The notes beneath the pieces are model-generated. The model made no database searches and had not been told where the DNA came from. It saw only the letters and a list, made by a program, of their open reading frames with translations. From Chitinophaga pinensis (GTDB lineage: Bacteria > Bacteroidota > Bacteroidia > NS11-12g > UBA955): a stretch of DNA of 46,278 nt. The DNA is taken from contig CAMDAF010000016.1 of NCBI GenBank assembly GCA_945888525.1, positions 1-46,278 on the forward strand, given 5' to 3'. Numbering within the stretch: the stretch's first letter is position 1; every line of letters begins with the position of its first letter. This document shows positions 4,975 through 35,500 of this stretch, in pieces. The position numbers and the translations under genes are program-made.

Positions 4975-5574
4975 CTATTTTCTAAAAAGAATCTGACAGC
5001 CAATTGATTTGGTTTGACTCACCGCAACAGGTTTGTTACTAAGCAAAGAATCCACTGCATCAGCAACATATTGCTTGCTCACTTTCTCCGGACTGTTTCC
5101 ATTGTCATCTATTGCACCATCGTATTTAATTATCCATTTAGAATTTTCTTTCCAAACCACATAAGCATGAGGCGTTTTTTGTGCAGAAAAATCCTTGGCA
5201 ACGGTTTGCTCTCCATCAAATAAGTATGGGAAGTTAAATTTCTCCTTTTTAGCTTTCTTAACCATTTTTGGATAAGTGTCTTCAACATACATGATGGTAT
5301 CGGTTGAACTTATCGCAATTAACGGAACACCCAAAGCCTTATATTTTAAATTCAATTGGTTAAGACGTTCAGGATACAATTTGGCAAACGGACAATGGTT
5401 GCAGGTAAAGACAATGATAAAACCTTTTGCATCTTTAAATTGACTTAACGAAACCATTTGACCATCAATATTTTTAAGACTAAAATCATTAATTGAATGG
5501 GTCGACTCATTGATAAAGCCGAACATCAAAACAGCTAAGAATAGTAATAAAAAACGCCTAAATAATTTTAACAT
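4975..5574 (-). CDS. Exported thioredoxin-like redoxin (AhpC/TSA-type)
   Basis: The product has 199 residues. A hydrophobic signal sequence (RRFLLLFLAVLMFGF) precedes a peroxiredoxin/TlpA-like fold: NDFSLKNIDGQMVSLSQF, then the active-site strand IIVFTCNHCPFA with a C-x-x-C pair, and TPHAYVV as the cis-Pro segment. The C-terminus (KSIGCQI) carries a further Cys, as in many thioredoxin-family members of this length. The likely role is a periplasmic thiol-disulfide exchange or peroxide-handling protein. It is the last gene of the metal-related minus-strand block, 6 nt after the YHYH gene, so it may protect or reduce thiols during metal stress. The family is clear; the reaction is inferred. Confidence 0.8.
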   Translation of the reverse strand: MLKLFRRFLLLFLAVLMFGFINESTHSINDFSLKNIDGQMVSLSQFKDAKGFIIVFTCNHCPFAKLYPERLNQLNLKYKALGVPLIAISSTDTIMYVEDTYPKMVKKAKKEKFNFPYLFDGEQTVAKDFSAQKTPHAYVVWKENSKWIIKYDGAIDDNGNSPEKVSKQYVADAVDSLLSNKPVAVSQTKSIGCQILFRK

Positions 5575-5580
5575 TTTATG

Positions 5581-6930
5581 TTATTTAATGATGCTTACAC
5601 TACGGGTATAAACCCTTGTAGGTGTGTTAATTTTTACAACATATTGGCCGGCATACAATGTTTGCGTATCAAAATAAGCAATGGTACTTCCCTGCAATAA
5701 AACACAGGATTGAACCAATTTACCGGTATAGTCATACAATTCAATACTTAAGTTTTCACGGTTTAGTTCATTGCATTGTATTGCCAATAAATCGCTGGCA
5801 GGATTTGGATAAATACTAATGTTCATTTCTTGAATAAAAGATTCAATACCTGTATTGTTAGATTTGTAAATTGTTACAGGTTCGCTTATACTAGCGACTT
5901 TACTTGCATTTTTTACCCCATAAAAAGTTGGCCCAACTGCATATGGATAGGCCGAATTCCAATTGGCATCAACTGTGGCAAAATAACAATAAATACCATT
6001 TGGGTATTCAGGGGTAATGCAAAAACGGCCATTGTGGACATCCAAAACATCCTCACTCAATCCTGCAAGAAACTCATAATCTTCTCTAAAGTAACCCAGA
6101 GGATAAGTGCTTGAAACAGCAGGACCAGCAGTAACAGTGCTTCCATTTGCGTAAGTTGATCTTGTTGTGATATTTCTGTATTTGTAAGCTGGTTTCATGC
6201 GTACGATTCCTCCGGTTCCATCCGCATTTTTATAAGCATATGCTCCATAAATAGGAAAACCATCAGCAGAAAATCCAATAAGAGGAGAATGTTTTGTAGA
6301 ATCAATAACATAGAGCCCATCAGCATTGTATAGGTTGCAAATAGTAGAAACAACATTTAAATCAAGGTTAAAGGCACTTGGATTTTGATGGTGGTGGTAA
6401 TTACCCATCGCAGGATGGCCTTTGGCGCAATCAAAACCTTTTCGCTCAGCAACAACGGCATCTCTGTTCCAAACATTATCGCCCATACCACCTAAAGGAC
6501 CACCTTTTAAAGCATTGTTGGCACTGCTCCAAGAAACACCGTCTCGGTAGTCAAACAAAGCAACACCGTTTATAAACAGACCAATATTCCCCCCTGTTGT
6601 ATTGCTCGGTGTACCAGTGTTTATTATTGGATTAAGTGTAAATTTAAAAATTGCTTTTTGGGCGGTTGTGAATGAAGGGTTTCCATCCAAAAACGGACCA
6701 GTAATGTATGCAGGAACGCCGTTAGTCCTCACGTAGACCCAATTACCCGAATACGAAACCGTCATAACATTGGCTGTATCCGCATCTTTAATTGGGGTTG
6801 AATTTCCGTTGACATAATGCCTACTCAAAATTCCAGTGGTATTCTGCAACCATGAGGTAATTGTCGGATTGGTTTGTGCATTTGCAAGTGTTGTAAAAAC
6901 AAGTGCGATTAAAAGGCTAGAGATTTTCAT
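5581..6930 (-). CDS. YHYH-domain secreted protein with T9SS sorting tail
   Basis: The product has 449 residues. The signal peptide MKISSLLIALVFTTLANAQ is followed by a YHYH-family domain; the name motif is represented by NYHHHQNPSAF (Y178-H181), with nearby GFSADGFPIYGAYAY typical of the family. The last 85 or so residues form a type A T9SS sorting domain, starting ISIYPNPASDLL and ending in VKINTPTRVYTRSVSIIK. YHYH proteins have no settled biochemical role but recur beside copper oxidases and MbnP/MbnH-like pairs; the His cluster suggests metal binding. It lies 58 nt downstream of the multicopper oxidase, which has the same kind of tail, so both probably reach the cell surface. Family call secure, function open. 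Confidence 0.85.
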   Translation of the reverse strand: MKISSLLIALVFTTLANAQTNPTITSWLQNTTGILSRHYVNGNSTPIKDADTANVMTVSYSGNWVYVRTNGVPAYITGPFLDGNPSFTTAQKAIFKFTLNPIINTGTPSNTTGGNIGLFINGVALFDYRDGVSWSSANNALKGGPLGGMGDNVWNRDAVVAERKGFDCAKGHPAMGNYHHHQNPSAFNLDLNVVSTICNLYNADGLYVIDSTKHSPLIGFSADGFPIYGAYAYKNADGTGGIVRMKPAYKYRNITTRSTYANGSTVTAGPAVSSTYPLGYFREDYEFLAGLSEDVLDVHNGRFCITPEYPNGIYCYFATVDANWNSAYPYAVGPTFYGVKNASKVASISEPVTIYKSNNTGIESFIQEMNISIYPNPASDLLAIQCNELNRENLSIELYDYTGKLVQSCVLLQGSTIAYFDTQTLYAGQYVVKINTPTRVYTRSVSIIK

Positions 6931-6988
6931 TAATAATTTAAATATGGGTTTGAAAGAAAATGATTTTATTCTGGGATGAGATATGATA

Positions 6989-8719
6989 TTACTCCTTAAC
7001 GAAATTTTGGATGCTTACCTTTTTTGAATATGCATCTGTAAGCATAACTGAATAAACACCTGGAATTAATTGTGAAATATCAATGCCGTTGTTTAATTCT
7101 GGGGCGGGCAACATCAAAATTGTTCTGCCTAAGACATCAACAATCCTCACATAATAAACATTTTGATTGCTGTTATTAAACTTGAAATAAAGTGTTTGGT
7201 TTGCTGGATTTGGATACAATGAAAAAGATGTAATATTCTCATTGGTGTTAATTTTATTTGAAGGATCAGTCACTACAAACTGTCCCATCATTCCTTCATC
7301 TTCATGCAACGAAATGTGACAATGGTACATAAATGGATGCAAGGCGTCTGCATAATCATCAAATTTTGCAATAAATTTAACAACATAAGGCGTTCCTCCA
7401 CCACCCGGTCCTCCGCCAGTGGCTCCTGGCACAAAAACCACATCTTTCCATCCAGCCTGAGCAGCTGAGGGAGCGGCTCCATTAACACTAATAATATTAA
7501 ATTCTACATCGTGTATATGAAAAGGGTGGCCAAAAGCTGTGGAATTGGTAATCTGCCATATTTCGGTGTTGTTTAATGGCACATTGTAGTCAATATAATT
7601 TAACTTAAATAATCTGTGGTTGATAATGAAAGTATTAGGGCCTAAGGTACCTGGAACTCCTGCGCTGTCTGTCATAGTCAATGCACGTGTTATTTGAGCA
7701 TCTGCAGATTTTAAGAGCACATTATTGGTTAATGCAGTTGGAATACTTGTGATAGCATTGCCCGTTGCTGATTTAAAATTCAAGTGCAACATAACAAAAT
7801 CTTTTTTACCAAGTGCATTTGCGAAAGGGCCATTTGGAAAATTTTCACCGCCAGGAATTGCATTCCCAAGGGTTGAATTAAAAGCTTTTATATCAATGGC
7901 ACTTGTTTGTCCTTTGAAGTCGACTAATATTTCAATTCTTTCACCTGCATGCAATAAGTAACGGGTTAGAGGAACTGGAGCATTTAACAAGCCTCCATCA
8001 GAACCAATAACATAAAAAGTTCTATTGTCGCTAAAACCAATGTTAAATGAACGCTCAATAGCTGCATTTAACAAACGAAAGCGAACGACCTGAGTTGGCA
8101 CTGTATATTGTGCTCTAAGAGTCATGTTTACCAAACAACTGTCGCCATAAGGCACCAAATCAAATTGACGTGAGGAATTAATATCCCTATCGGTCAATAC
8201 CATAGGAATGTCATCAAGTCCATAAGTCCTTGGTAATTTAAGTGAAGACTCTAAACTATCTCTTACAATAATTAAACCCCCAATACCTTTTGTTATATGT
8301 TCCATGGTCATCTCATGAAGATGTGGATGGTACCAGTAGGTGGCAGCATTATTGACTACTTTCCAATAAGGTTGCCAGAGTGCGCCTGGGGGTATTACCT
8401 GATGGGGTCCACCATCCATTACAGCTGGCAAATGCATCCCATGCCAGTGAATAGTTGTAGAATCATTTAAATTGTTTTTTACGTTTAAGTGAACAATATC
8501 GCCTTTTTTGAAAATTAAAGTAGGTCCCCAAAACTTGCCATTAATTCCACCAGTTATGGTTTGGTTACCTGTATTGCAAATTTGGGCAAAGGTGTCTTTA
8601 ATGCTTAGATTAAAATTGGTTCCGGTTAAAGTATCTGGAATCCATAATTGATTGTATTGCGCATTTGAATATTGAAATGCCAGCAAGGTTGTTATTGTGA
8701 AAAGAGATTTTAATTTCAT
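6989..8719 (-). CDS. Secreted multicopper oxidase with T9SS sorting tail
   Basis: The product has 576 residues with a signal peptide ending YSNAQ (21). All four copper-binding motifs of a laccase/CueO-type multicopper oxidase are intact: HWHG (H91, H93), WYHPHLH (H131, H133), HPFHIH (398-403) and HCHISLHEDEGMM (466-478), which supplies the type-1 Cys467 and a candidate axial Met. There is a Gly-rich loop (GGGPGGGG) but no Met-rich insert of the CueO kind. The C-terminus is a T9SS type A domain starting FSLYPNPANQTLYF. The enzyme oxidises a one-electron donor, possibly Cu(I), with reduction of O2 to water. Its start abuts the stop of the small ORF upstream (TAAATG), indicating translational coupling. 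Confidence 0.93.
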   Translation of the reverse strand: MKLKSLFTITTLLAFQYSNAQYNQLWIPDTLTGTNFNLSIKDTFAQICNTGNQTITGGINGKFWGPTLIFKKGDIVHLNVKNNLNDSTTIHWHGMHLPAVMDGGPHQVIPPGALWQPYWKVVNNAATYWYHPHLHEMTMEHITKGIGGLIIVRDSLESSLKLPRTYGLDDIPMVLTDRDINSSRQFDLVPYGDSCLVNMTLRAQYTVPTQVVRFRLLNAAIERSFNIGFSDNRTFYVIGSDGGLLNAPVPLTRYLLHAGERIEILVDFKGQTSAIDIKAFNSTLGNAIPGGENFPNGPFANALGKKDFVMLHLNFKSATGNAITSIPTALTNNVLLKSADAQITRALTMTDSAGVPGTLGPNTFIINHRLFKLNYIDYNVPLNNTEIWQITNSTAFGHPFHIHDVEFNIISVNGAAPSAAQAGWKDVVFVPGATGGGPGGGGTPYVVKFIAKFDDYADALHPFMYHCHISLHEDEGMMGQFVVTDPSNKINTNENITSFSLYPNPANQTLYFKFNNSNQNVYYVRIVDVLGRTILMLPAPELNNGIDISQLIPGVYSVMLTDAYSKKVSIQNFVKE

Positions 8720-8845
8720 TTATTCTTTTATTATTTTTAGTTCATTTTGTGTCCAAGTTTCAAAGCTAGAATCAGGAACAGATTGACAATTTATATTGCT
8801 AAATGAAGCTGTTATGCAGATTATGATGAAAAATGCTTTTTTCAT
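8720..8845 (-). CDS. 41-residue secreted peptide, possible truncated exoprotein
   Basis: This is an intact 42-codon ORF on the minus strand, beginning MKKAFFIIICITASFSNINC and continuing QSVPDSSFETWTQNELKIIKE. The first 20 residues are a classical signal peptide. The next stretch (VPDSSFETWT) looks like the mature start of larger Bacteroidota exoproteins ('xFExW'), so it may be the remnant of a longer gene. It lies between the di-haem peroxidase (45 nt upstream) and the multicopper oxidase, and its stop codon touches the oxidase ATG (TAAATG), which implies coupled translation. The Cys before the mature part is not in a standard lipobox. Alternatives are a functional small copper-block peptide or a leader that maintains coupling. 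Confidence 0.5.
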   Translation of the reverse strand: MKKAFFIIICITASFSNINCQSVPDSSFETWTQNELKIIKE

Positions 8846-8890
8846 GTTTATTGTTTAGACGATTTAATATTTAGAATCCTTTGCAGGTAA

Positions 8891-9901
8891 CTATTTATTT
8901 TTGGGGTATGTGTGTTTTGAGTCAAATAAAAACTTCTTGTCCGTTAGTGTTCTAAGAAACGCAATAATATCAACCTTCTCATTGCTGCTTAAATTTAAAT
9001 TTCTTTTTAATTCAGTAGAGATTTTTTTATTATTTAGATCTATTGAATTGTAATGGTTCATTACTTGGGCCAAAGTTTTAAAACGGCCATCGTGCATGTA
9101 TGGGTAAGAAAATTCAATATTTCGCAAGCTTGGCACTTTGAATTTCAAGGAATCATTTGGCATCAAACTTACTCGATAACGGCCATAGTCATTCAAACTG
9201 GTATCAATGGTTAGACCATTGTTTTTAAATTCAAAAGTTGAAAAAAGAGGTTCTTTATGGCAAGAATTACAGTGTAATTTAAACAAGCGGTAACCATTTT
9301 GTTCTTGCGTATTAAATTGGATTTTTCCAAGCAACATGCTGTCGTATTTAGAATTTGAGCTGATTAAACTTAATAAAAATTGAGAGATCGATTTAAGTGT
9401 TCGTTCGGTATTTATTAGTGAGTCGCCATAGGCTTGATAAAAAAGCTGTTTGTAGATTTGATTTCGGTTTAATTTTAGCAACACATTTGAGATTGATTCA
9501 CCCATTTCATCCGGATGAGAAATCGGCGCTAGTGCTTGAACATCCAAATGGTTAATGGCCCCATCCCACATAAACGTTTTATGCCAAGCCAAATTAAATA
9601 AAACCGGCGCGTTGCGATTTCCTATTTTATCATTAATGCCATGGCTTAGATTGTGGTCAACATGCGCAAAGGCATTATAAGGATTGTGACAAGAAGCACA
9701 AGATATCGTATTGTCTAATGAGAGAATTGGGTCATAAAACAGTGTGCGCCCCAATTCTATTTTTAAATCATTTATTTGATTGTTTTCAAATTGATAAACT
9801 GGTTTGGGAAAATACTTTGGATATTTAAACGTATTTTTTTCTACAGAAACAAACGCGATGCACAGCAATAAAAGGAATAATAGAACAGTTTTACTTTTCA
9901 T
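8891..9901 (-). CDS. Di-haem cytochrome c peroxidase / MauG-MbnH-like enzyme
   Basis: The product has 336 residues with an N-terminal signal sequence and two haem c attachment motifs, C68-A-S-C71-H72 and C211-N-S-C214-H215. Family blocks are present: LGRTLFYDPILS before the first haem, NRNAPVLFNLAWH and MWDG after it, and FKVPSLRN...PYMHDGRFKTL near the C-terminus. This is the cytochrome c peroxidase/MauG superfamily, acting in the periplasm. The upstream gene encodes an MbnP-like protein and overlaps this one by 11 nt. In methanotrophs the analogous pair is MbnP-MbnH, in which the di-haem MbnH oxidises a Trp of MbnP to kynurenine to build a copper site. I therefore favour an MbnH-like modification enzyme over a simple H2O2 scavenger, by context. 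Confidence 0.85.
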   Translation of the reverse strand: MKSKTVLLFLLLLCIAFVSVEKNTFKYPKYFPKPVYQFENNQINDLKIELGRTLFYDPILSLDNTISCASCHNPYNAFAHVDHNLSHGINDKIGNRNAPVLFNLAWHKTFMWDGAINHLDVQALAPISHPDEMGESISNVLLKLNRNQIYKQLFYQAYGDSLINTERTLKSISQFLLSLISSNSKYDSMLLGKIQFNTQEQNGYRLFKLHCNSCHKEPLFSTFEFKNNGLTIDTSLNDYGRYRVSLMPNDSLKFKVPSLRNIEFSYPYMHDGRFKTLAQVMNHYNSIDLNNKKISTELKRNLNLSSNEKVDIIAFLRTLTDKKFLFDSKHTYPKNK

Positions 9902-10547
9902 CTTCTATTAATTTGAAACAAGAAGCCAAAGCTTTTGAAATTTTCATTGAATTAGGCCCAGGAGACATTACATGGTTAAGATCCCTCAATGAAATCATTT
10001 TAAAAAAAAGTGCCAAGTCAATTTCCAAATGAAAAGACTTATTGGGTCGGAGTTCAAGATTGATTGAATGAAGAGAATTATACGGATAGGCGTAACCTCC
10101 AGCGTGAAATTGAAATTCGTGGTTTCTTGCTGGAGAATGGGGCGATTTGCCTTCAATTTTAAAATTGATATACCCACTTTGCCAGGTCCAGTACATCCCA
10201 TTGCTTGGATCTAATTGGCCACCCAAAGCCCCAGAGGTATTGATTATGCTATCAAGTCCCAGATTAAATTCAAGTAAATTTGCATTAGCGAATGGACTTA
10301 AATACAGTGTTGCAGTATCAGAACTGGTAAAATCCAATAAATGATAATTACTTGGATTTAAGTCTTTCTTTTTATTTGAATCAGATATTACAATATTAGA
10401 AAGGTAACATTTAAAACCATCAATATTTATTGAATCAGCTTGATGTGGACGAATAAGAACAACTTTAACACCTGCAAGCGGTTTAGCAAAGGAATAACTA
10501 ATTATGAAAATACTTATAAAAGAAATAAATCTAAACAATACATTCAT
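9891..10547 (-). CDS. MbnP-like periplasmic copper-binding protein
   Basis: The product has 218 residues from the ATG at 10547; the frame stays open 44 codons further upstream, but that part lies inside the preceding gene and lacks signal-peptide features, whereas MNVLFRFISFISIFIISYSF is a good signal sequence. The MbnP-family core is visible: LGGQLDPSNGMYWTWQSGY (110-126) with W120 and W122, FKIEG, then RNHEFQFHAGGY with H143 and H148, and a C-terminal NHVMSPG. Family members bind one copper ion after a partner di-haem enzyme converts a Trp to kynurenine. The partner gene follows directly (11-nt overlap), and the preceding sensor-like gene ends 1 nt before this start, so the genes are co-expressed. 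Which Trp or His are ligands here is not known. Confidence 0.82.
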   Translation of the reverse strand: MNVLFRFISFISIFIISYSFAKPLAGVKVVLIRPHQADSINIDGFKCYLSNIVISDSNKKKDLNPSNYHLLDFTSSDTATLYLSPFANANLLEFNLGLDSIINTSGALGGQLDPSNGMYWTWQSGYINFKIEGKSPHSPARNHEFQFHAGGYAYPYNSLHSINLELRPNKSFHLEIDLALFFKMISLRDLNHVMSPGPNSMKISKALASCFKLIEDEK

Positions 10548-10548
10548 T

Positions 10549-10992
10549 TTATCTTCTAGGCTTTTTTCTAGGAGAAAACAGGTCAGACATTTCCAACAAC
10601 AAAGCATCAAACGCTTTAATTTGTTCAGGTTTACATAAACTTTGAATATCTTTAAAATGTTTGCAATGGGTATCTTCAATACAAACTTGAATTGCTGCTA
10701 TTTGATTCATTAAAGAATCTTTCATTGATTGATTAATGGTGTTCAAACCAGCATATAAAGTACTTTTTAGCGCATGAATTTCTTTTTCATTTTTCCTAAT
10801 TTCTGATCTATGAGCTTCTATTAACACATTATAATCTTCAATCTGTTTATCATCAAAATTTAATTTTTCAATAATATAATCTTTAGGACCATCACCCCTG
10901 CCAGGTTTATTTTTCAAAATAAAACCCACTAAAATGAGATTAGACAAAAGCAATATTATTGCTGCAACAGTTAGTAATTTTACTTTGTTCAT
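10549..10992 (-). CDS. Spy/CnrX-like periplasmic (heavy-metal) sensor protein, membrane-anchored
   Basis: The product has 147 residues: one N-terminal membrane helix (about 6-27), then an all-helical domain rich in charged residues, with IEDTHCKHFKDIQSLCKPEQ near the C-terminus. The layout (helical hairpin with a 'xPEQ' turn and His/Cys residues) matches the Spy/CpxP/CnrX ('heavy-metal resistance') superfamily, whose members sense metals or bind misfolded proteins in the periplasm. It overlaps the putative anti-sigma gene by 4 nt (ATGA) and is followed 1 nt later by the MbnP-like gene. By analogy with CnrX it could pass a metal signal to the membrane anti-sigma factor. The superfamily call is good; the sensing role is inferred from context. 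Confidence 0.68.
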   Translation of the reverse strand: MNKVKLLTVAAIILLLSNLILVGFILKNKPGRGDGPKDYIIEKLNFDDKQIEDYNVLIEAHRSEIRKNEKEIHALKSTLYAGLNTINQSMKDSLMNQIAAIQVCIEDTHCKHFKDIQSLCKPEQIKAFDALLLEMSDLFSPRKKPRR

Positions 10993-11246
10993 TTGTATAA
11001 GTCGTTATTGGTATTCACTTGGGTAAATAGGTTCATTTTATTTGTAGTATTTTCTTTCAAGACGATTAATCGAATATTCAAACTAAGAAACAATATGATA
11101 GAGGCAGCTATAGAGATAGAAATGCCAGTTGAAAAATTTTCCGATTTAAGGTTTTCTAAACGCGCTTGTATTTTCCCGAACAAGGCGTTTGGTGCCTCCA
11201 CTTTTTTAATTTGACTTAATTGATCAATTGGATGAAACTGTTGCAT
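10989..11246 (-). CDS. Small one-TM protein, putative anti-sigma factor
   Basis: The product has 85 residues: a soluble, mostly helical N-terminal part (QLSQIKKVEAPNALFGKIQA), one membrane helix (about 43-62, ISISIAASIILFLSLNI) and a short outer tail. No zinc-binding HxxxCxxC is present. Proteins of this size and position, between an ECF sigma gene and a periplasmic sensor, are typically membrane anti-sigma factors (CnrY-like) that hold the sigma factor at the inner membrane. It starts 27 nt after the sigma gene and shares an ATGA with the sensor gene. The anti-sigma role rests on gene order and topology, not on sequence motifs. Confidence 0.6.
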   Translation of the reverse strand: MQQFHPIDQLSQIKKVEAPNALFGKIQARLENLKSENFSTGISISIAASIILFLSLNIRLIVLKENTTNKMNLFTQVNTNNDLYK

Positions 11247-11273
11247 TATTTTTATTTAGACGATATTATTTAA

Positions 11274-11795
11274 CTAATCCTTCTGCTTAAGGTATTTTTT
11301 TTCAATATTATTTTTAGCTCTTTGAAACAAAGACTCAACTGCTTTAACTGTGAGATTTAATATTTCAGCTATTTCTTTCTGAGATTTAGTCTCGATTTTC
11401 GATAAAATGAGTACAGTCTTTTGATTATCTGGCAATTGATTAATTGTTTCGAACAATTTCATGAAGGCTTCTTTTTCCTCCATAATAATTCCAGGATGTT
11501 TAAAATCAGATTCTTGATGTTTTATTTCAGAGCTATTATCAAAGAACAAAGAAGTTAAGTTGCTAAATCTTTTTTGACGTTTTTTGGCTTTTAAAAAATC
11601 AAGAGACTTATTTATTGTAATGCGGTAAATCCATGTTTTAATATCTGATTGACCTTTGAAATTAGCCATTGATTGGTCCACTGAAAGAAAAACATCTTGC
11701 GTTATCTCCTCAGCATCTTCTGTGTTTTGAACATAGTTAAGTGCAAGGTTAAAAACCAAGTTTTTATGCGCTTGATATGTATGCTCTAAATTCAA
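11274..11795 (-). CDS. ECF-type RNA polymerase sigma factor
   Basis: The product has 173 residues, normal for an ECF sigma factor. Region 2 is clear: NLVFNLALNYVQNTEDAEEI, TQDVFLSVDQ, then IKTWIYRITINKSLDFLKAKKR, the -10 recognition helix. Region 4 follows an acidic linker: INQLPDNQKTVLILSKIE and the helix-turn-helix QKEIAEILNLTVKAVESLFQ. It directs core polymerase to a specific promoter set, probably including its own operon. The start is TTG at 11795; the next upstream in-frame codons reach a stop at 11823-11825 without an ATG or GTG. It heads the minus-strand block and is divergent from the SulP fusion gene. No exact TAnnTTTG box was found upstream, in keeping with non-housekeeping control. 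Confidence 0.88.
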   Translation of the reverse strand: MNLEHTYQAHKNLVFNLALNYVQNTEDAEEITQDVFLSVDQSMANFKGQSDIKTWIYRITINKSLDFLKAKKRQKRFSNLTSLFFDNSSEIKHQESDFKHPGIIMEEKEAFMKLFETINQLPDNQKTVLILSKIETKSQKEIAEILNLTVKAVESLFQRAKNNIEKKYLKQKD

Positions 11796-12019: not shown

Positions 12020-14176
12020 ATGTTTAAAAATTTAAAATATGATTTACCCGCGGGTCTTGTTGTTTTCCTAGTAGCTCTTCCACTTTGCTTAGGGGTTGCT
12101 TTGGCCAGCGGCGCTCCGTTGCTTTCCGGCATTATTTCTGGCATAATTGGAGGAACAATCGTTGGTTTTTTAAGTCAATCACATACAAGTGTAAGTGGAC
12201 CAGCTGCAGGATTGTCTGCCATCGTTTTAAGCTCTATATTAAAACTAGGCAGTTTCGAAACATTTTTGCTCGCTGTTGTTATGGCTGGTGCCTTTCAAAT
12301 TGTTTTAGGGCTCTTTAAAGGGGGGTTTATTGCCAATTATATCCCTTCAAATGTAATTAAAGGATTATTGGCTGCGATTGGTGTCATATTGATTTTAAAA
12401 CAAATTCCGCATGCAGTAGGATATGACAAAGACCCTGAAGATGATTTTTCATTTTCTCAAGCTGACGGAGAAAATACGTTTTCAGAACTGCTGCAAATTT
12501 TCAATTACTTTTCGTGGGGAGCCATCGTTGTTTCTATGATATCTTTGTTTGCATTGGTGTATTGGAACAAGACCAGATTAAAGGATATACAGTTATTGCC
12601 TGCCTCATTATTTGTGGTCTTTTTAGGCATATTTCTCAACCAGATTTTTAAACTTTATTTGCCTAATCTATACATACAAGAATCCCATCTGGTAAATATT
12701 CCTAAATTTGAAGGGTATCAACAATTGCTGGTATTGCCTAATTTTTCAGAAATTGGGAACCACGATGTTTGGATCATCGCATTTACCATTGCCATTGTCG
12801 CATCACTTGAAACCTTACTAAATTTAGAAGCAGTTGAAAACCTTGACCCTGAAAAACGACTTGCATCACCTAACGTTGAGTTACTTGCACAGGGTGCTGG
12901 AAATATGCTTGCAGGATTTATTGGTGGGATTCCAATCACCTCCGTTATTGTTCGAAGTTCAGTAAACATCAACGCCGGTAGTAAAACCAAATTATCCAGT
13001 ATTTTTCATGGGATTTTCTTGTTGCTTAGCTTGCTATTGCTTGGCCCATTTTTAAATCTAATTCCATTGGCTTCCTTGGCATCAATTTTATTGGTAACAG
13101 GTTATAAACTAACCAAAATAGAGCTTTATAAAGACATGTATTCTAGGGGATACAATCAATTTATCCCATTCGTAAGCACCATCTTGGCGATCGTTTTTAC
13201 AGATTTGTTGGTGGGTGTTTTGATTGGCCTGGGTATTAGTATTTTCTATTTATTAAGAAGCAATTTCAACAACCCATTTGTCATAAAAAAGGAAACTTTA
13301 CACTTGGATGAAACCATACGAATTGAGCTTCCCAACCAGGTTTCATTCTTGAATAAAGCCAGCATTCAAGATACCTTATGGAATATCCCAGAAAACTCCA
13401 AAGTAATTATAGATGCAACATATTCCGATTACATTGATCAAGATGTCTTGGACATTATAAACGATTTCAAAAACACTGTTAGCGGCTTAAAAAACATCAA
13501 AGTCAATGTTTTGGGCATAAAATCACTATACCATCCAGAAGACCGCATTGAATTTGTAAATGTTCTAGACAAGGCTACACAGGAAAAGCTCGCACCTGAC
13601 GAGATACTTGAAATCTTAAAAAATGGCAACGAAAGATTTGTGAATGGAAAATGGGCTGAAAAATATTTGAAACAACAGGTCAACGCAACATCTTTTGGAC
13701 AAAACCCTTTTGCAATTGTGTTAAGCTGTATTGATTCACGAACCACTACCGAACATATATTTGATCTTGGATTAGGCGACATATTTAGTGTTCGAATTGC
13801 TGGAAATATACTAAATGAAGATATACTTGGTAGCATGGAATTTGGCATTCATGAGATCGGTGTTAAATTAATTGTTGTATTAGGACACACAAAATGTGGT
13901 GCAATAATTGGCGCTTGCAACCATGTTAAATTAGGCAACTTAACCACCTTACTTAACAAAATTCAACCTGCCATTGACAGTGAAACAACTTTCACTTTAA
14001 ACCGAAATGGTTCAAATTTAGAATTCGTAAATAAAGTATCGGAACAAAACGTATTCTTAACAATAGAAAGAATTCAAAAAGAGAGTCCATTAATTGCTGA
14101 ATTAGAAACTGCTGGAAAAATAAAAATAGTGGGTGGTTTGTATGATGTTGAGACAGGAATTGTGAATTTTTATTAA
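12020..14176 (+). CDS. SulP-family anion transporter fused to STAS and beta-carbonic anhydrase domains
   Basis: The product has 718 residues. An N-terminal SulP membrane domain (about 1-420) opens with LPAGLVVFLVALPLCLGVALA and includes VSGPAAGLSA and multiple helices. It is followed by a STAS domain (about 430-530; VIIDATYSDYIDQDVLDIIN). The C-terminal part (about 535-718) is a beta-carbonic anhydrase with complete zinc ligands: C570-x-D572-x-R574 and H623-x-x-C626. A BicA-like bicarbonate (or sulfate) transporter tied to an enzyme interconverting CO2 and HCO3- suggests coupled bicarbonate uptake or pH control at the inner membrane. Such fusions occur in several bacterial phyla. The transported ion is inferred. 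A good -7 box lies at 11988-11995. Confidence 0.9.
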   Translation: MFKNLKYDLPAGLVVFLVALPLCLGVALASGAPLLSGIISGIIGGTIVGFLSQSHTSVSGPAAGLSAIVLSSILKLGSFETFLLAVVMAGAFQIVLGLFKGGFIANYIPSNVIKGLLAAIGVILILKQIPHAVGYDKDPEDDFSFSQADGENTFSELLQIFNYFSWGAIVVSMISLFALVYWNKTRLKDIQLLPASLFVVFLGIFLNQIFKLYLPNLYIQESHLVNIPKFEGYQQLLVLPNFSEIGNHDVWIIAFTIAIVASLETLLNLEAVENLDPEKRLASPNVELLAQGAGNMLAGFIGGIPITSVIVRSSVNINAGSKTKLSSIFHGIFLLLSLLLLGPFLNLIPLASLASILLVTGYKLTKIELYKDMYSRGYNQFIPFVSTILAIVFTDLLVGVLIGLGISIFYLLRSNFNNPFVIKKETLHLDETIRIELPNQVSFLNKASIQDTLWNIPENSKVIIDATYSDYIDQDVLDIINDFKNTVSGLKNIKVNVLGIKSLYHPEDRIEFVNVLDKATQEKLAPDEILEILKNGNERFVNGKWAEKYLKQQVNATSFGQNPFAIVLSCIDSRTTTEHIFDLGLGDIFSVRIAGNILNEDILGSMEFGIHEIGVKLIVVLGHTKCGAIIGACNHVKLGNLTTLLNKIQPAIDSETTFTLNRNGSNLEFVNKVSEQNVFLTIERIQKESPLIAELETAGKIKIVGGLYDVETGIVNFY

Positions 14177-14210
14177 TGTTTATTTAAACACCAATTGGAA
14201 CTAAGTAACT

Positions 14211-14218
14211 TAACTTTG
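14211..14218 (+). promoter_or_regulatory. Promoter -7 box for the ferritin-VIT gene
   Basis: TAACTTTG, identical to the box at 11988-11995, lies 24 nt upstream of the ATG at 14243, so this gene probably has its own promoter although the upstream gene ends only 66 nt earlier. Confidence 0.5.
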
Positions 14219-14242
14219 TATTAGAAAATTGAACCCATATAA

Positions 14243-15343
14243 ATGATTGATTTAAAAAATATACAAACAGAAATTGATGCCAGTTTTTTGTATAAAATAT
14301 TGGCAGAACACGAAGACGATGCAAATGTTGCCAATATTTTTCATCAGATGAGTGAGATTGAATACGGACATGCCCAGGCTTTTATGCAAAAAAACGGCAT
14401 GGATATAAACAATATGCCAGGCCCATCAACCAGAGCGAAAATCCTAAAACAAATTGGAAAAGTAATGGGTTACGATTATGTTTTAGGGGTATTGCTAGAT
14501 ACCGAAAAAAGCATTTCTTCGTCGGTTGTTAACGCCAGAAAAAAAACAAAAACTGAAGAATCTTTATCAGATACTGCCCATGTCACCATTCTTAAAAACA
14601 TATTAAACCACAGTCCAAATATTTCAGGTTCAAATTTGGCCCGCTTTGAAAAAAGGCACCGTTCGGTGGGCGGAAATGCATTAAGAGCTGCAGTATTAGG
14701 TGGCAATGATGGATTGGTTTCAAATTTTAGTTTGGTGATGGGCATTGCAGGCGCAAGCAGCGGGCAAAAAGAAGTCTTATTAGCCGGTATGGCGGGTTTA
14801 TTGGCAGGTGCCTTATCGATGGCATTGGGCGAATGGATATCTGTAAAAAGCTCGCAAGAACTTTACGAAAACCAAATGCAATTGGAAATGGATGAATTGG
14901 AGAACAATCCAGAAGGCGAAGAAAAAGAGTTGGCGCTCATATACATGTCTAAGGGTATTCCAGAAGAGCAGGCTAGAAAAATGGCCTCTGATATCATGCA
15001 AAACAAAGAGCATGCGCACGAGGTATTGATTAAAGAAGAACTTGGCATTAATGTTGAAGACTTAAAAGGGTCAGCAATGGAAGCTGCAGTTAGTTCATTT
15101 ATATTGTTTGCACTGGGTGCAATATTACCCGTTATTCCATTTTTCTTTTTCGGCGGAACACAAGCAATTATTTTTAGCACAATACTTAGTGGATTAGGTC
15201 TATTTATCATTGGTGCAGCAATTACCCTTTTTACAGGAAAAAGCGTTTGGTATTCTGGTTTTAGACAGGTTTTATTTGGTTTAATCGCAGCTGCAATAAC
15301 CTTTGGAATTGGCAAAATAATTGGAGTTTCTTTATTGGGATAA
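14243..15343 (+). CDS. Ferritin-like/VIT1-CCC1 iron (manganese) transporter, Er-VIT/MbfA type
   Basis: The product has 366 residues. The N-terminal 130 or so residues form a rubrerythrin/ferritin-like helical domain with metal-ligand candidates E10, E23 and E40-x-x-H43 (IEYGH). The C-terminal part is a VIT1/CCC1 transporter: NALRAAVLGGNDGLVSNFSL, then GLLAGALSMALGEWISV, a cytoplasmic loop rich in Glu (ENPEGEEKELALIY-type, about 210-275) and three further hydrophobic segments. In MbfA-like proteins the ferritin domain senses or oxidises Fe2+ and the VIT domain exports Fe2+ or Mn2+ across the inner membrane. The fusion is complete and in frame. The direction of transport is inferred from family members. 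Confidence 0.88.
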   Translation: MIDLKNIQTEIDASFLYKILAEHEDDANVANIFHQMSEIEYGHAQAFMQKNGMDINNMPGPSTRAKILKQIGKVMGYDYVLGVLLDTEKSISSSVVNARKKTKTEESLSDTAHVTILKNILNHSPNISGSNLARFEKRHRSVGGNALRAAVLGGNDGLVSNFSLVMGIAGASSGQKEVLLAGMAGLLAGALSMALGEWISVKSSQELYENQMQLEMDELENNPEGEEKELALIYMSKGIPEEQARKMASDIMQNKEHAHEVLIKEELGINVEDLKGSAMEAAVSSFILFALGAILPVIPFFFFGGTQAIIFSTILSGLGLFIIGAAITLFTGKSVWYSGFRQVLFGLIAAAITFGIGKIIGVSLLG

Positions 15344-32547: not shown

Positions 32548-35500
32548 TTAAAGCACTTCTAGCATCTGTCTTATATAGTGCATAAAGCCATCGGAGTCGC
32601 GAACGGTAAGATTAATTAAATAGGTGCCTTTCATTAATGGAACACCTTGGCTGTCTTTACCATCAAAGGGTTTATCGCCCATATTTCCATCATAAATCTT
32701 ACCACCCCAACGGTCGAAAATTTGCAGATTATAGAATAAAATTCCACGTCCTTGCACCACAAAGTTATCATTTAACTGGTCATTGTTTACAGTGATTGCA
32801 TCAGGAATATAAAGTCTAAAAACATCTTTGACCCTTATCAATTCAACCGCAGTATCGGCACAACCTAAACTGTTTTTAACAATCAGCCTAACAGGGTAAT
32901 AGCCTGTATCTGAGTAGGTATGCGAAGGGCTTGGATTAACTGTTTCTTTGCTAAAATCACCAAAATTCCATTCAAAACTCGATTGGTTTGTTGATTGGTT
33001 ATTGAAATTAACCTGTCGATTTAAATAATCAGGTTGTTTAGGTAGATACGTAAACTTGCTGATTGGCAAATCAACCACATTCATAAAGCCAATCTTTTTG
33101 ATATAACTGACACACAAGGAATCGGAAATTGCCAGCAAGCTTACATCAAAAGTGCCAGAAACTAGATAAGTAAATGAAGGGTTCGGGGCATTGCTGCTGT
33201 CTGAGGGTGTAAGATGCCACCAATAAGCCGCAGCGCCAGAACTTAAATTATTAAAAGAAACAGACTCGTTTCTGCAAATTGTTTGTTTGCTCGCAGAGAA
33301 ATCAACGATTGGTTTTGCATTAACAATCAGATTTACTGTATCGGATACTGATTGGGAACAATTGTCAATTAAGTTTACTATATACTGGGTACTTATTGAA
33401 GGGTTTTGAACGATAGAATTATTGATACTGGGCGAACCATTAATTGTCCATTGGTATTGAGAACTCAAACCCCCACTCATATTAATCTTAAGTGTAGACG
33501 TGTCACTTTGACAAATACTGTTGTCGCTCAACTTAACATTTAATTTTAGGGCAGGACGAACCGTAATGTTGACGAATGAAGAATCGTATGGTTGGGTGCA
33601 TATATCATCTACAATCAATTTATAAATCGTGCTGCTTAGAGGCTTGACCAATATATTCTTGGCATTCCCTTGGCTTTGGTTCCAAGTGTAATTATAAGCA
33701 GAGCTGATGCCCCCCGAAACAATAGGGTTCAGAGGAACAGAGGCGCCATCACAAATGGTGGTATCTCTTAAACCAGATATTTTAATCTTAGCCATTACAT
33801 CAACATCCATGGTATCACTTGCTTGTGCAGAACACAAATCATTTAGCAGCACAATGTATCGGGTCTTAATTTTGGGAGAAATGGTATTGGATTGGGTTGC
33901 GTTTAGTCCTTGATTCCATGTATAAGCATAGGTATTGGTGTCGCCGCCAATAGGATTTGCACTCATAGAGAAAGAACTTCCGTAACAAATTAAAGTATCC
34001 TTAGGAAGCATCACTTTAAGTTCAGGTCTTACCTTAACGTAAATTGAATCTACTCCAGGATTGACTGTGCAAGCATCTGTTAATGTAACTTTCACCCATT
34101 TACTTGAAGACATAACCCCTGAGGTGCTGTTTCCAGTACCCAATCCATTGTTCCAAGTATATAAATATTTACTAACATCACCGCCTGAAGCGCTAACTGT
34201 AAAGGCACTTGTATTTTGATAACAAACAAAAGTGTCAGCACTAAAAATCTTTGGATTCAGAGCACTTTTAACTGTAATATTTGCCGTTGCGGTATCACCT
34301 AAAACCGTACAACCATCTCTTACAATAACTTGATAGGTATTGCTTCCCGTTGGGGCCACCAATTGAGATGGTGCAGTTCCAAGACCAAGATTCCAAGTGT
34401 AGGTATAGGCGCTACCCAGACCACCACTAACAACAGGAACCAAAGGCACAGAGATCCCCGTACAAATTGTGGTATCATTTAATCCACTTACAACTATTGG
34501 TGCCAATACATCTATGGTAATTGAATCTGTAGCAGAATTGGAACAATTATCGGTCAGGACAACCTTGTATTTCGTTTTAGCTTTGGGTTTAACGTTTTGT
34601 ATGGATGTATCGGATAAGAATGGGGTCCAATTGTACGTATAAGCATTAGAAACACCTCCACTTGAATTGGCTGTAAGTATAGCGCCCCTTCCGTAACATA
34701 ATGTCGTGTCATTGTCTAATTGAACCGATAAAGGCGCTCTTACTACAACGTAAATTGAATCAGAAGCCGGGGTCACGGAGCATGCATCTTTCAATATACA
34801 CTTAACCCATTGGCTAGCGGTTAAATTTGGATTGATGGTACTGCCAATACCTAGGCCATTTAACCAAGTATAAGAATATTGAATGGTATCGCCGCCACTT
34901 CCATTTGCAGAAATGGAACTCACTTTATTGTAACAAATTAGCGTATCATTACTGCTCACCTTTACGTTTAAACCAATCTTAACATTTACAGTAACATAAG
35001 CAGTGTCTAATATTGGTGTGCATGCATCGCTAATAATGACTCTATAGGTTGTGGCAATGGTAGGTGATACTGTTTTAGTCATTCCCGTTCCTAAGCCATT
35101 GTCCCAGGTGTAAACATAAGAAGAAGAATCACCTCCAGTGGCATTGGCTATTAGGTTTGCAGACCTACCCAAGCAAATCGTGGTATCTTTGTTTGTGAAA
35201 ACCTCTAAAGGATTTCTAACACTTACATTAACCGTGGCAGAGTCTTTTGAATTGGTGCAAAGATCAGTCAAATAGACTTTATAACTTTGGTTGGCGGTCG
35301 GAGCAACTATATTGGTGTCGTTGTAAACTGTGTTGTCCCATTTAAAGAAATAGTCACCAGAATAGCCTCCAGAACCTTTGGCTCTTAACAGTGCAGATTT
35401 CCCCATACAAATGGTGGTATCTGAATAGGCAGTAACTTTAACTGGCTTTTTAATGGCAGTATAGAGCAATTTAAATCCTCTACCTACTACATATGGATCT

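Follow-up and report, generated by a model that had tools for sequence, protein, structure and literature searches.

Nine closely spaced genes headed by a gene for an extracytoplasmic function (ECF) sigma factor raise the question of whether they form one regulon and, if so, what that regulon handles. The genes occupy positions 4975–11795 on the minus strand of a 46,278-nt stretch of DNA from Chitinophaga pinensis (assembly GCA_945888525.1, contig CAMDAF010000016.1), referred to here as the window. A first-pass annotation had proposed that they form a single sigma-controlled regulon with a cell-surface branch. On balance, we favor the view that the block is an ECF-sigma regulon that deals with a redox metal, copper being the most likely candidate, both in the envelope and at the cell surface. 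The recurring core is six genes, for the sigma factor, a putative anti-sigma factor, a Spy/CnrX-like sensor, an MbnP-family protein, an MbnH/MauG-like di-heme enzyme and a YHYH-domain protein; a multicopper oxidase and a redoxin form an optional pair.

All nine open reading frames (ORFs) of the first-pass annotation were found at that place and on that strand. It had described most junctions as overlapping or shorter than 60 nt, and the largest intergenic gap measured was 58 nt (going from the sigma gene to the redoxin gene, spacings of 27, −4, 1, −11, 45, 0, 58 and 6 nt, negative values being overlaps). Ten proteins in total were scanned with Pfam and NCBIfam. Pfam agreed with the families that had been named for seven of the nine block proteins, the sensor being counted via a sub-cut-off match to LTXXQ; the putative anti-sigma factor and a 41-aa ORF had no reliable match. 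The features, several of which carry sorting tails of the type IX secretion system (T9SS), are as follows.

11274..11795, minus strand: ECF sigma factor gene (Pfam Sigma70_r2/r4_2, NCBIfam sigma70-ECF; TTG start, exact start unsure)
11256..11282, minus strand: promoter-like element 1, AAGGATT-N13-CGTCTAA (exact copy, one of two in the genome)
10989..11246, minus strand: putative anti-sigma factor, 85 aa (by position; no reliable Pfam family)
10549..10992, minus strand: Spy/CnrX-like envelope sensor with an N-terminal hydrophobic anchor (sub-cut-off LTXXQ, PDB profile matches)
9891..10547, minus strand: MbnP-family protein with a signal peptide, ATG at 10547 (PF20243, predicted fold)
8891..9901, minus strand: MbnH/MauG-like di-heme enzyme with an extra loop, H80-x2-H83-x3-H87 (CCP_MauG, PDB profile match 6e1c)
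8855..8881, minus strand: promoter-like element 2, AAGGATT-N13-CGTCTAA (exact copy, the second of two in the genome)
8720..8845, minus strand: 41-aa ORF, probable remnant of a 286-aa T9SS gene (alignment with loci L033 and L034)
6989..8719, minus strand: CueO-like multicopper oxidase with a T9SS tail (Cu-oxidase_3/_2/_1 and Por_Secre_tail)
5581..6930, minus strand: YHYH-domain protein with a T9SS tail (PF14240 and Por_Secre_tail)
4975..5574, minus strand: envelope redoxin, CxxC (FTCNHCPFAK; AhpC-TSA)

Whether these genes belong together was examined in three samples of genomes. In the family set, 70 genomes were searched and 29 loci were fetched from these and the window's own genome. MbnP matches were present in 60 of the 70 genomes, many of them paralogues. 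The sigma, sensor, MbnP, MbnH and YHYH genes lay together on one strand in 12 of the 29 loci (L033–L039, L041, L046, L047, L049 and L056), with the sigma gene again upstream of the module, and the remaining loci were either cut by contig ends or held MbnP/MbnH paralogues without sigma or YHYH. The named-genome set comprised the best 80 of 499 relatives in a YHYH profile scan and is therefore biased to window-like YHYH proteins; the two sets overlap in three regions (L034/L062, L035/L070 and L056/L087). In 60 named loci the available sequence upstream of YHYH spans 2.5 kb or more; among these, a same-strand MbnH gene was observed within 7 kb upstream in 49 and an MbnP gene in 47, and where MbnH and YHYH were direct neighbors (57 pairs) the median gap was 55 nt. 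This same-strand association and short gap indicate that MbnH and YHYH co-occur more often than by chance.

The regulatory genes were found less often. In the 46 named loci that had MbnH and at least 4.2 kb upstream, sigma was detected in 21, the sensor in 22, both in 20 and the anti-sigma gene in 16, and these counts are lower bounds because the profiles miss divergent versions. Where sigma was missing, several named loci had an unrelated gene ahead of MbnP, which suggests that MbnP-MbnH-YHYH is a minimal cassette. An oxidase gene near YHYH was present in 12 of the 80 named loci, a redoxin gene in 12 and both in 10. The order therefore recurs as had been claimed, but as a core of six genes and not as nine: the complete order of the window, including a 286-aa gene discussed below, was observed only in two genomes of the same genus (G010 and G017). 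One of these, G017, also has an extra 524-aa ORF between oxidase and YHYH (L034:12809-14380), with a start that by eye resembles a sulfatase or phosphatase.

A less biased sample took 118 genomes evenly from across the phylum; six of them, the window's own genome included, had window-like YHYH proteins (E ≤ 1e-40). MbnP and MbnH were nearby in four of the five others (G127, G195, G109 and G094). G094 has the whole six-gene core and both elements, and G127 has sigma-sensor-MbnP-MbnH-YHYH; in G195 the YHYH gene precedes MbnP-MbnH, and G183 has YHYH without the pair. Based on this draw, the unit is uncommon in the phylum, yet occurs across families and in at least one other class-level group.

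What might tie these genes together was indicated by their upstream regions, in which CGTCTAA was first seen recurring. Its two-block form, AAGGATT-N13-CGTCTAA, matches the 2.42-Mb genome exactly at only two sites, each within the block, and the reversed control has none. The upstream block of element 1 overlaps the sigma stop codon, and the element is 10 nt before the anti-sigma start. Element 2 is 10 nt before the 41-aa ORF, upstream of the oxidase gene, and in L033 and L034/L062 it is retained ahead of the 286-aa gene. In 395 upstream regions of module genes, from which exact duplicates had been removed, the pattern AGGA-N14..16-CGTCTA was present in 29, compared with a mean of 0.06 and a maximum of 1 in 100 shuffles. 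It preceded the anti-sigma gene in 8 of 24 regions, YHYH in 15 of 98, MbnP in 3 of 75, the oxidase in 2 of 17 and sigma in 1 of 36, was absent upstream of the sensor (0/39), MbnH (0/89) and redoxin (0/17), and was present at 3 of 1149 other ORFs of the same loci. The two blocks were spaced by 15 nt in 26 of 33 pairs, with a consensus of roughly CGAAGGA(A/T)-...-CGTCTAA. Its placement, gene by gene, indicates that the element marks the heads of sub-operons. An exception outside the 395-region set was G080, in which the element heads an MbnH gene without a preceding MbnP. Independent promoters had been named in advance as grounds for rejecting a single regulon; two promoters are predicted in the block, yet both carry the identical element, a finding in favor of one regulon. 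In its downstream block, of the CGTC type, the element is similar to −10 elements known from ECF sigma factors.

Several results, concerning the element, the sensor and an additional class of target, weigh against a metal-excess regulon run by this sigma factor. Genome-wide counts of the shorter element were not above those of the reversed control in the window's own genome (2 versus 6), nor were sites with up to two mismatches (26 versus 33); the corresponding counts were 15 versus 22 in 12 family genomes and 24 versus 46 in 13 further genomes. CGTCTA was present in 12 of the 20 named loci with both sigma and sensor, the other 8 being without even the downstream block, and in 13 of the 26 named loci with MbnH in which no sigma or sensor was detected nearby (L062 has both, more than 7 kb from YHYH). 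Ahead of the sigma gene itself, the element was missing in 35 of 36 loci. The sensor's family match is sub-threshold (LTXXQ, E 0.0095, 17.1 bits versus a curated cut-off of 24.3), a profile of 22 sensor sequences matched Spy and NccX in the PDB weakly (0.014 and 0.37, respectively), and the weak NccX alignment places Ile116 at the ligand Met of CnrX/NccX (CnrX Met123; four residues after the His). Lastly, the element heads TonB-dependent receptor genes in three genomes, a target that fits uptake better than detoxification.

Element counts alone are thus not enriched, and it is the positions of the sites that are telling. In the 12 family genomes, 10 of the 15 sites were inside the module. The 13 further genomes were chosen for loci that carry the element or are without an adjacent sigma gene, and the pattern AGGA-N15-CGTCTAA gave 24 sites, with 15 at module genes (8 already seen and 7 new), 3 before TonB-dependent receptors and 6 elsewhere. 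In the window's own genome, no regulon members outside the block were above control. In G070 the element heads four loci that lie apart from one another, namely anti-sigma-sensor, oxidase-redoxin, YHYH and a TonB-dependent receptor. In G081 one operon runs from sigma to redoxin, with a copy of the element between sigma and anti-sigma-sensor-MbnP-MbnH and a second one before oxidase-redoxin; the YHYH gene of this genome lies elsewhere and has a copy to itself. Scattered loci that each carry the element are the pattern expected of a sigma regulon acting in trans. In a further locus of G081 (L209, on G081:C8), two divergent copies lie around the start of a gene of the urea-transporter family and a 145-aa ORF, which may be chance or a further member of the regulon.

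The retention of the element in loci without an adjacent sigma gene, together with its absence from the eight loci with sigma, would also fit a site for another regulator or sigma factor, with the block's own sigma gene a neighbor by descent. We consider this improbable. The element has two blocks at a fixed spacing, lies on the gene's strand tens of nucleotides from start codons and has the −10-like downstream block mentioned above; moreover, where sigma and sensor sit apart from YHYH (G070, G075 and G081), the anti-sigma operon also carries it. The sigma factor of the block matched Sigma70_r2 (2.1e-16) and r4_2 (4e-14) in Pfam, was above the cut-off of NCBIfam sigma70-ECF and ends at region 4 (match at 113–162 of 173 aa). 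The 85-aa product of the next gene has one hydrophobic segment, as judged by eye, and matched no anti-sigma family in Pfam; it is a putative anti-sigma factor based on its position and a conserved C-terminal tail, N-x-L-Y (Y84 in 23, and N81 and L83 in 21, of 25 aligned sequences). Among 42 aligned sensors (39 distinct), H61 was present in 35, C120 in 40 and Q124 in 37, a subset thus being without H61; H61, H112, F113 and C120 were invariant in 22 of 22 selected rows.

The MbnP and MbnH genes bear on which metal the regulon would handle. MbnP more likely starts at ATG 10547, one base after the sensor stop codon, than at TTG 10679 as given in the ORF list. The protein matched PF20243 (3.6e-35, 122 bits versus a gathering score of 27) and was below the cut-off of NCBIfam TIGR04052, MbnP_like_WxW (26 versus 140 bits). 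M118, W120, W122 and H148 (218-aa numbering; M99, W101, W103 and H129 in the mature protein) were invariant in 48 of 48 MbnP sequences, as was the Tyr of the motif region. A sequence search of the PDB with MbnP gave no match. The predicted fold (mean predicted local distance difference test score, pLDDT, 88) had six PDB matches at E ≤ 0.001, all chains of 7l6g (E 8.3e-8 to 4.4e-7), the solved structure of MbnP from Methylosinus trichosporium, and a sequence bridge via Ideonella MbnP also reached 7l6g. In Deinococcus radiodurans, MbnP-MbnH adjoins CopC-CopD. MbnH reportedly acts on a Trp of MbnP.

The MbnH of the block matched CCP_MauG (9.8e-52), and its profile had 6e1c as best PDB match (1.4e-65), an entry listed as "Di-heme enzyme" that we take to be MbnH. 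Its best NCBIfam match was TIGR04039, the MbnH family, below the cut-off (204.8 versus 362.85 bits). Both heme motifs (C68-x2-C71-H72 and C211-x2-C214-H215) and Y284 were conserved in 22 of 22 MbnH sequences. The residue aligned with Y284 is Tyr in 6e1c and Met in the cytochrome c peroxidases 1iqc and 3o5c; in MauG-type enzymes a Tyr takes the position of the axial Met of cytochrome c peroxidases.

The di-heme enzyme has an additional feature that goes with a nearby YHYH gene. A histidine loop (C-x2-C-H-x6..9-H-x2-H-x3-H-G) was present in 73 of 73 distinct MbnH sequences with a same-strand YHYH gene within 5 kb, in two more on cut contigs (L040 and L044) and in three other MbnH with a linked YHYH gene that came from the phylum-wide sample. 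It was absent in ten MbnH, of which eight had no YHYH within 5 kb and two (L042 and L133) had one on the opposite strand; 6e1c and the Deinococcus MbnH were also without it. Loop-bearing MbnH formed one clade (73 of 82 tree rows, support 100/98), which indicates one evolutionary event kept over wide divergence rather than many independent gains. In L133 (7789-11654), the divergent, long-branched loop-less MbnH adjoins, on the opposite strand, a complete MbnP-MbnH-YHYH cassette. The window's own genome has two more MbnP/MbnH pairs, L051 (G000:C6) and L052 (G000:C40), without sigma, sensor, YHYH or the loop.

The YHYH protein matched PF14240 (1.4e-55) and Por_Secre_tail (1.5e-12), and its eponymous motif reads YHHH here. 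In domain numbering, H154, H161, H163, H196, D149, D205 and D266 were invariant in 60 of 60 sequences; the protein also has invariant Trp residues. Its sequence matched the PDB through T9SS tails only, and its fold model (mean pLDDT 76, below 50 for part of 151–168 and for 176–187; 45 PDB matches at E ≤ 10, none at ≤ 0.001) was not used. As a tentative hypothesis, about which we are doubtful, the YHYH protein would be the real partner of the loop-bearing MbnH clade. The loop, H-x2-H-x3-H-G at seven residues after the first heme motif, would serve to oxidize or load YHYH (and MbnP) before T9SS export, making a new protein-derived metal site on the surface, and the block as a whole would be an ECF-run assembly line of matured surface metalloproteins.

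The oxidase matched Cu-oxidase_3/_2/_1 and Por_Secre_tail (3.1e-10), and its best NCBIfam match was CueO (NF008205; 347.5 bits, below the cut-off of 525). It has four copper-ligand motifs (HWHG, WYHPH, HPFHIH and HCHISLHEDEGMM); 12 of 17 homologues of at least 500 aa matched all four patterns, and the rest miss HPxHxH. The redoxin matched AhpC-TSA (2.4e-17), and all 18 homologues have a C-x-H-C motif. SprA, the translocon protein of the T9SS, is encoded in the genome (2436.7 bits versus a cut-off of 200; 0 of 14 control genomes), and the YHYH protein and the oxidase are likely displayed on the surface, as judged from their tails.

One member of the annotated block did not stand as described. 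The first-pass annotation had presented the 41-aa ORF as a secreted peptide. The reading frame is real; however, L033 and L034 hold at that position a 286-aa ORF with a T9SS tail (Por_Secre_tail), and protein and DNA alignments show that the 41-aa ORF consists of the first 34 and last five residues (KIIKE) of that gene, in frame. Neither the element before it nor the start codon that follows is disrupted. The ORF is best read as the remnant of a recent in-frame deletion, and an assembly error may be the alternative. On the same alignment, a conserved secreted or metal-binding peptide was rejected.

The regulon first proposed is supported by the recurring order, by the shared element at the head of both sub-operons and, for the surface branch, by the T9SS tails and SprA; the pairing of sigma factor and element we infer. 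Its operation can be proposed in three steps. In the first, which is modeled on the anatomy of the proteins, the small anti-sigma factor with its one transmembrane segment would hold sigma at the inner membrane, with its periplasmic N-x-L-Y tail meeting the sensor; the sensor would bind metal via His61/His112/Cys120 and release sigma, as in CnrYXH. In the second, for which the element is the support, free sigma would use one kind of two-block promoter to transcribe two units, anti-sigma-sensor-MbnP-MbnH on the one hand and (T9SS protein)-oxidase-YHYH-redoxin on the other. As the sigma gene is without the element here, the anti-sigma factor would rise with the output, giving negative feedback. 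In the third, which is proposed by family, MbnH would oxidize a Trp of the MbnP WxW motif to kynurenine, MbnP would then bind Cu(I) in the periplasm, and the T9SS would export YHYH and the CueO-like oxidase to the surface, where they would bind metal and oxidize Cu(I). Copper is suggested by what is known of these families (MbnP/CorA/MopE and CueO) and by the Deinococcus MbnP-MbnH-CopC-CopD cluster. CorA and MopE have kynurenine-dependent copper sites and a MauG-like partner gene (PMC3912023).

Given a sensor of the CnrX type and an oxidase of the CueO type, we lean toward an excess of metal as the trigger, with shortage as a close rival. In the latter case the same regulon would serve copper acquisition: MbnP would scavenge Cu(I) as MopE/CorA do, YHYH would be a scavenger at the surface, and the metal would enter through TonB-dependent receptors. 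CorA and MopE are copper-repressed and acquisition has been proposed for CorA (PMC3912023), MbnPH pairs are located near MbnT-like receptors in methanotrophs (PMC3621798), and the receptors headed by the element in G070, G072 and G080 have a Plug domain. On the other side, a copper-requiring CueO-like oxidase is unexpected in a starvation regulon, CnrX-type sensors are activated by metal binding (PMC7689651), and the receptor homologue of the window's own genome (G000:C39, 42% identity) has no element upstream. Overall, a shortage response is possible, yet we rate it as unlikely. The element-headed receptors (G070:C8, L203; G080:C29, L205; G072:C10, L210) are ~780–811 aa long and have CarboxypepD_reg and Plug domains.

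It was also considered that the unit is not concerned with copper homeostasis. MbnH would then be an envelope oxidase of general function, forming a redox cofactor or cross-link from the protein itself in MbnP, and perhaps in YHYH as well, and the sensor would respond to envelope or oxidative stress like Spy. The sensor does match Spy slightly better than NccX, the block contains no copper ATPase, CusABC or CopC gene, and a published prediction makes YHYH a hydrolase that depends on metal and has a Zn site (PMC7824862). The MbnP fold match, the intact CueO-like oxidase and the Deinococcus cluster instead point to copper, and there seems little chance that the unit serves a purpose apart from it.

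The individual parts of the copper regulon that we favor are known. The block shares adjacent MbnP and MauG-like di-heme genes with the MbnP/MbnH "metallo-mystery pair" (TIGR04052/TIGR04039), CorA/CorB and MopE/SACCP of methanotrophs, and shares with the pair the modeled MbnP fold (7l6g), the W-x-W motif and the heme and Tyr features of MbnH. It differs in scoring below both NCBIfam cut-offs, in its T9SS YHYH partner and extra MbnH histidine loop, and in regulation by a sensor-type ECF circuit, not FecIR/MbnIR. The methanobactin genes MbnA/MbnB/MbnC were not among the ten proteins scanned with Pfam and NCBIfam, a search that did not extend to the rest of the genome. The pair was noted in one study to be conserved "far beyond" methanobactin producers and its role was called unclear (PMC3621798). 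In its logic the block would resemble CnrYXH of Cupriavidus (CnrH sigma, CnrY anti-sigma and CnrX sensor), with an ECF sigma factor, a putative small one-transmembrane-segment anti-sigma factor and a candidate membrane-anchored helical sensor, of which a His aligns weakly with an NccX His. Its order is sigma-anti-sigma-sensor, however, Cys120 is conserved, the ligand Met is Ile in the weak alignment, and the output is MbnP/MbnH and surface proteins instead of an RND (resistance-nodulation-division) efflux pump. CorE of Myxococcus, a copper ECF sigma factor driving the oxidase gene cuoB, likewise is an ECF sigma factor upstream of a multicopper oxidase; it senses copper via its own Cys-rich C-terminal extension, without an anti-sigma factor (PMC10141476), whereas the window sigma ends at region 4. 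CueO itself is the best NCBIfam match of the window oxidase and shares its four ligand motifs, but the latter is below the CueO cut-off and has the T9SS tail.

The combination of these parts in one unit with the element, the YHYH partner and the loop is apparently new: no description of the unit, element, partner or loop was found in titles and abstracts of the open-licence literature, so an earlier description is possible. The MbnP/MbnH pair, of known chemistry and unclear job outside methanotrophs, is now placed in a unit that recurs among Bacteroidota and that brings along a sensor circuit and a surface branch built on YHYH. Most carriers are uncultured; Fluviicola chungangensis (L136) is a cultured one. 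YHYH, a domain of unknown function, gains a testable context, the predicted promoter motif lets regulons be read from genomes alone, and candidate residues for mutation are named in the sensor (His/Cys) and the histidine loop of MbnH.

Upstream of the block and divergent from the sigma gene, the window contains at 12020-15343 on the plus strand a sulfate permease/carbonic anhydrase fusion gene (PF00916 and PF00484) followed by a VIT-family gene. The same pair is at the same position in L033, L034 and L041, and the permease alone is beside MbnP in L110 and L119. Further along, at 32548-37779 on the minus strand, the window encodes a 1743-aa T9SS-type (CHU_C) thermolysin-like M4 metalloprotease with PKD and CUB domains.

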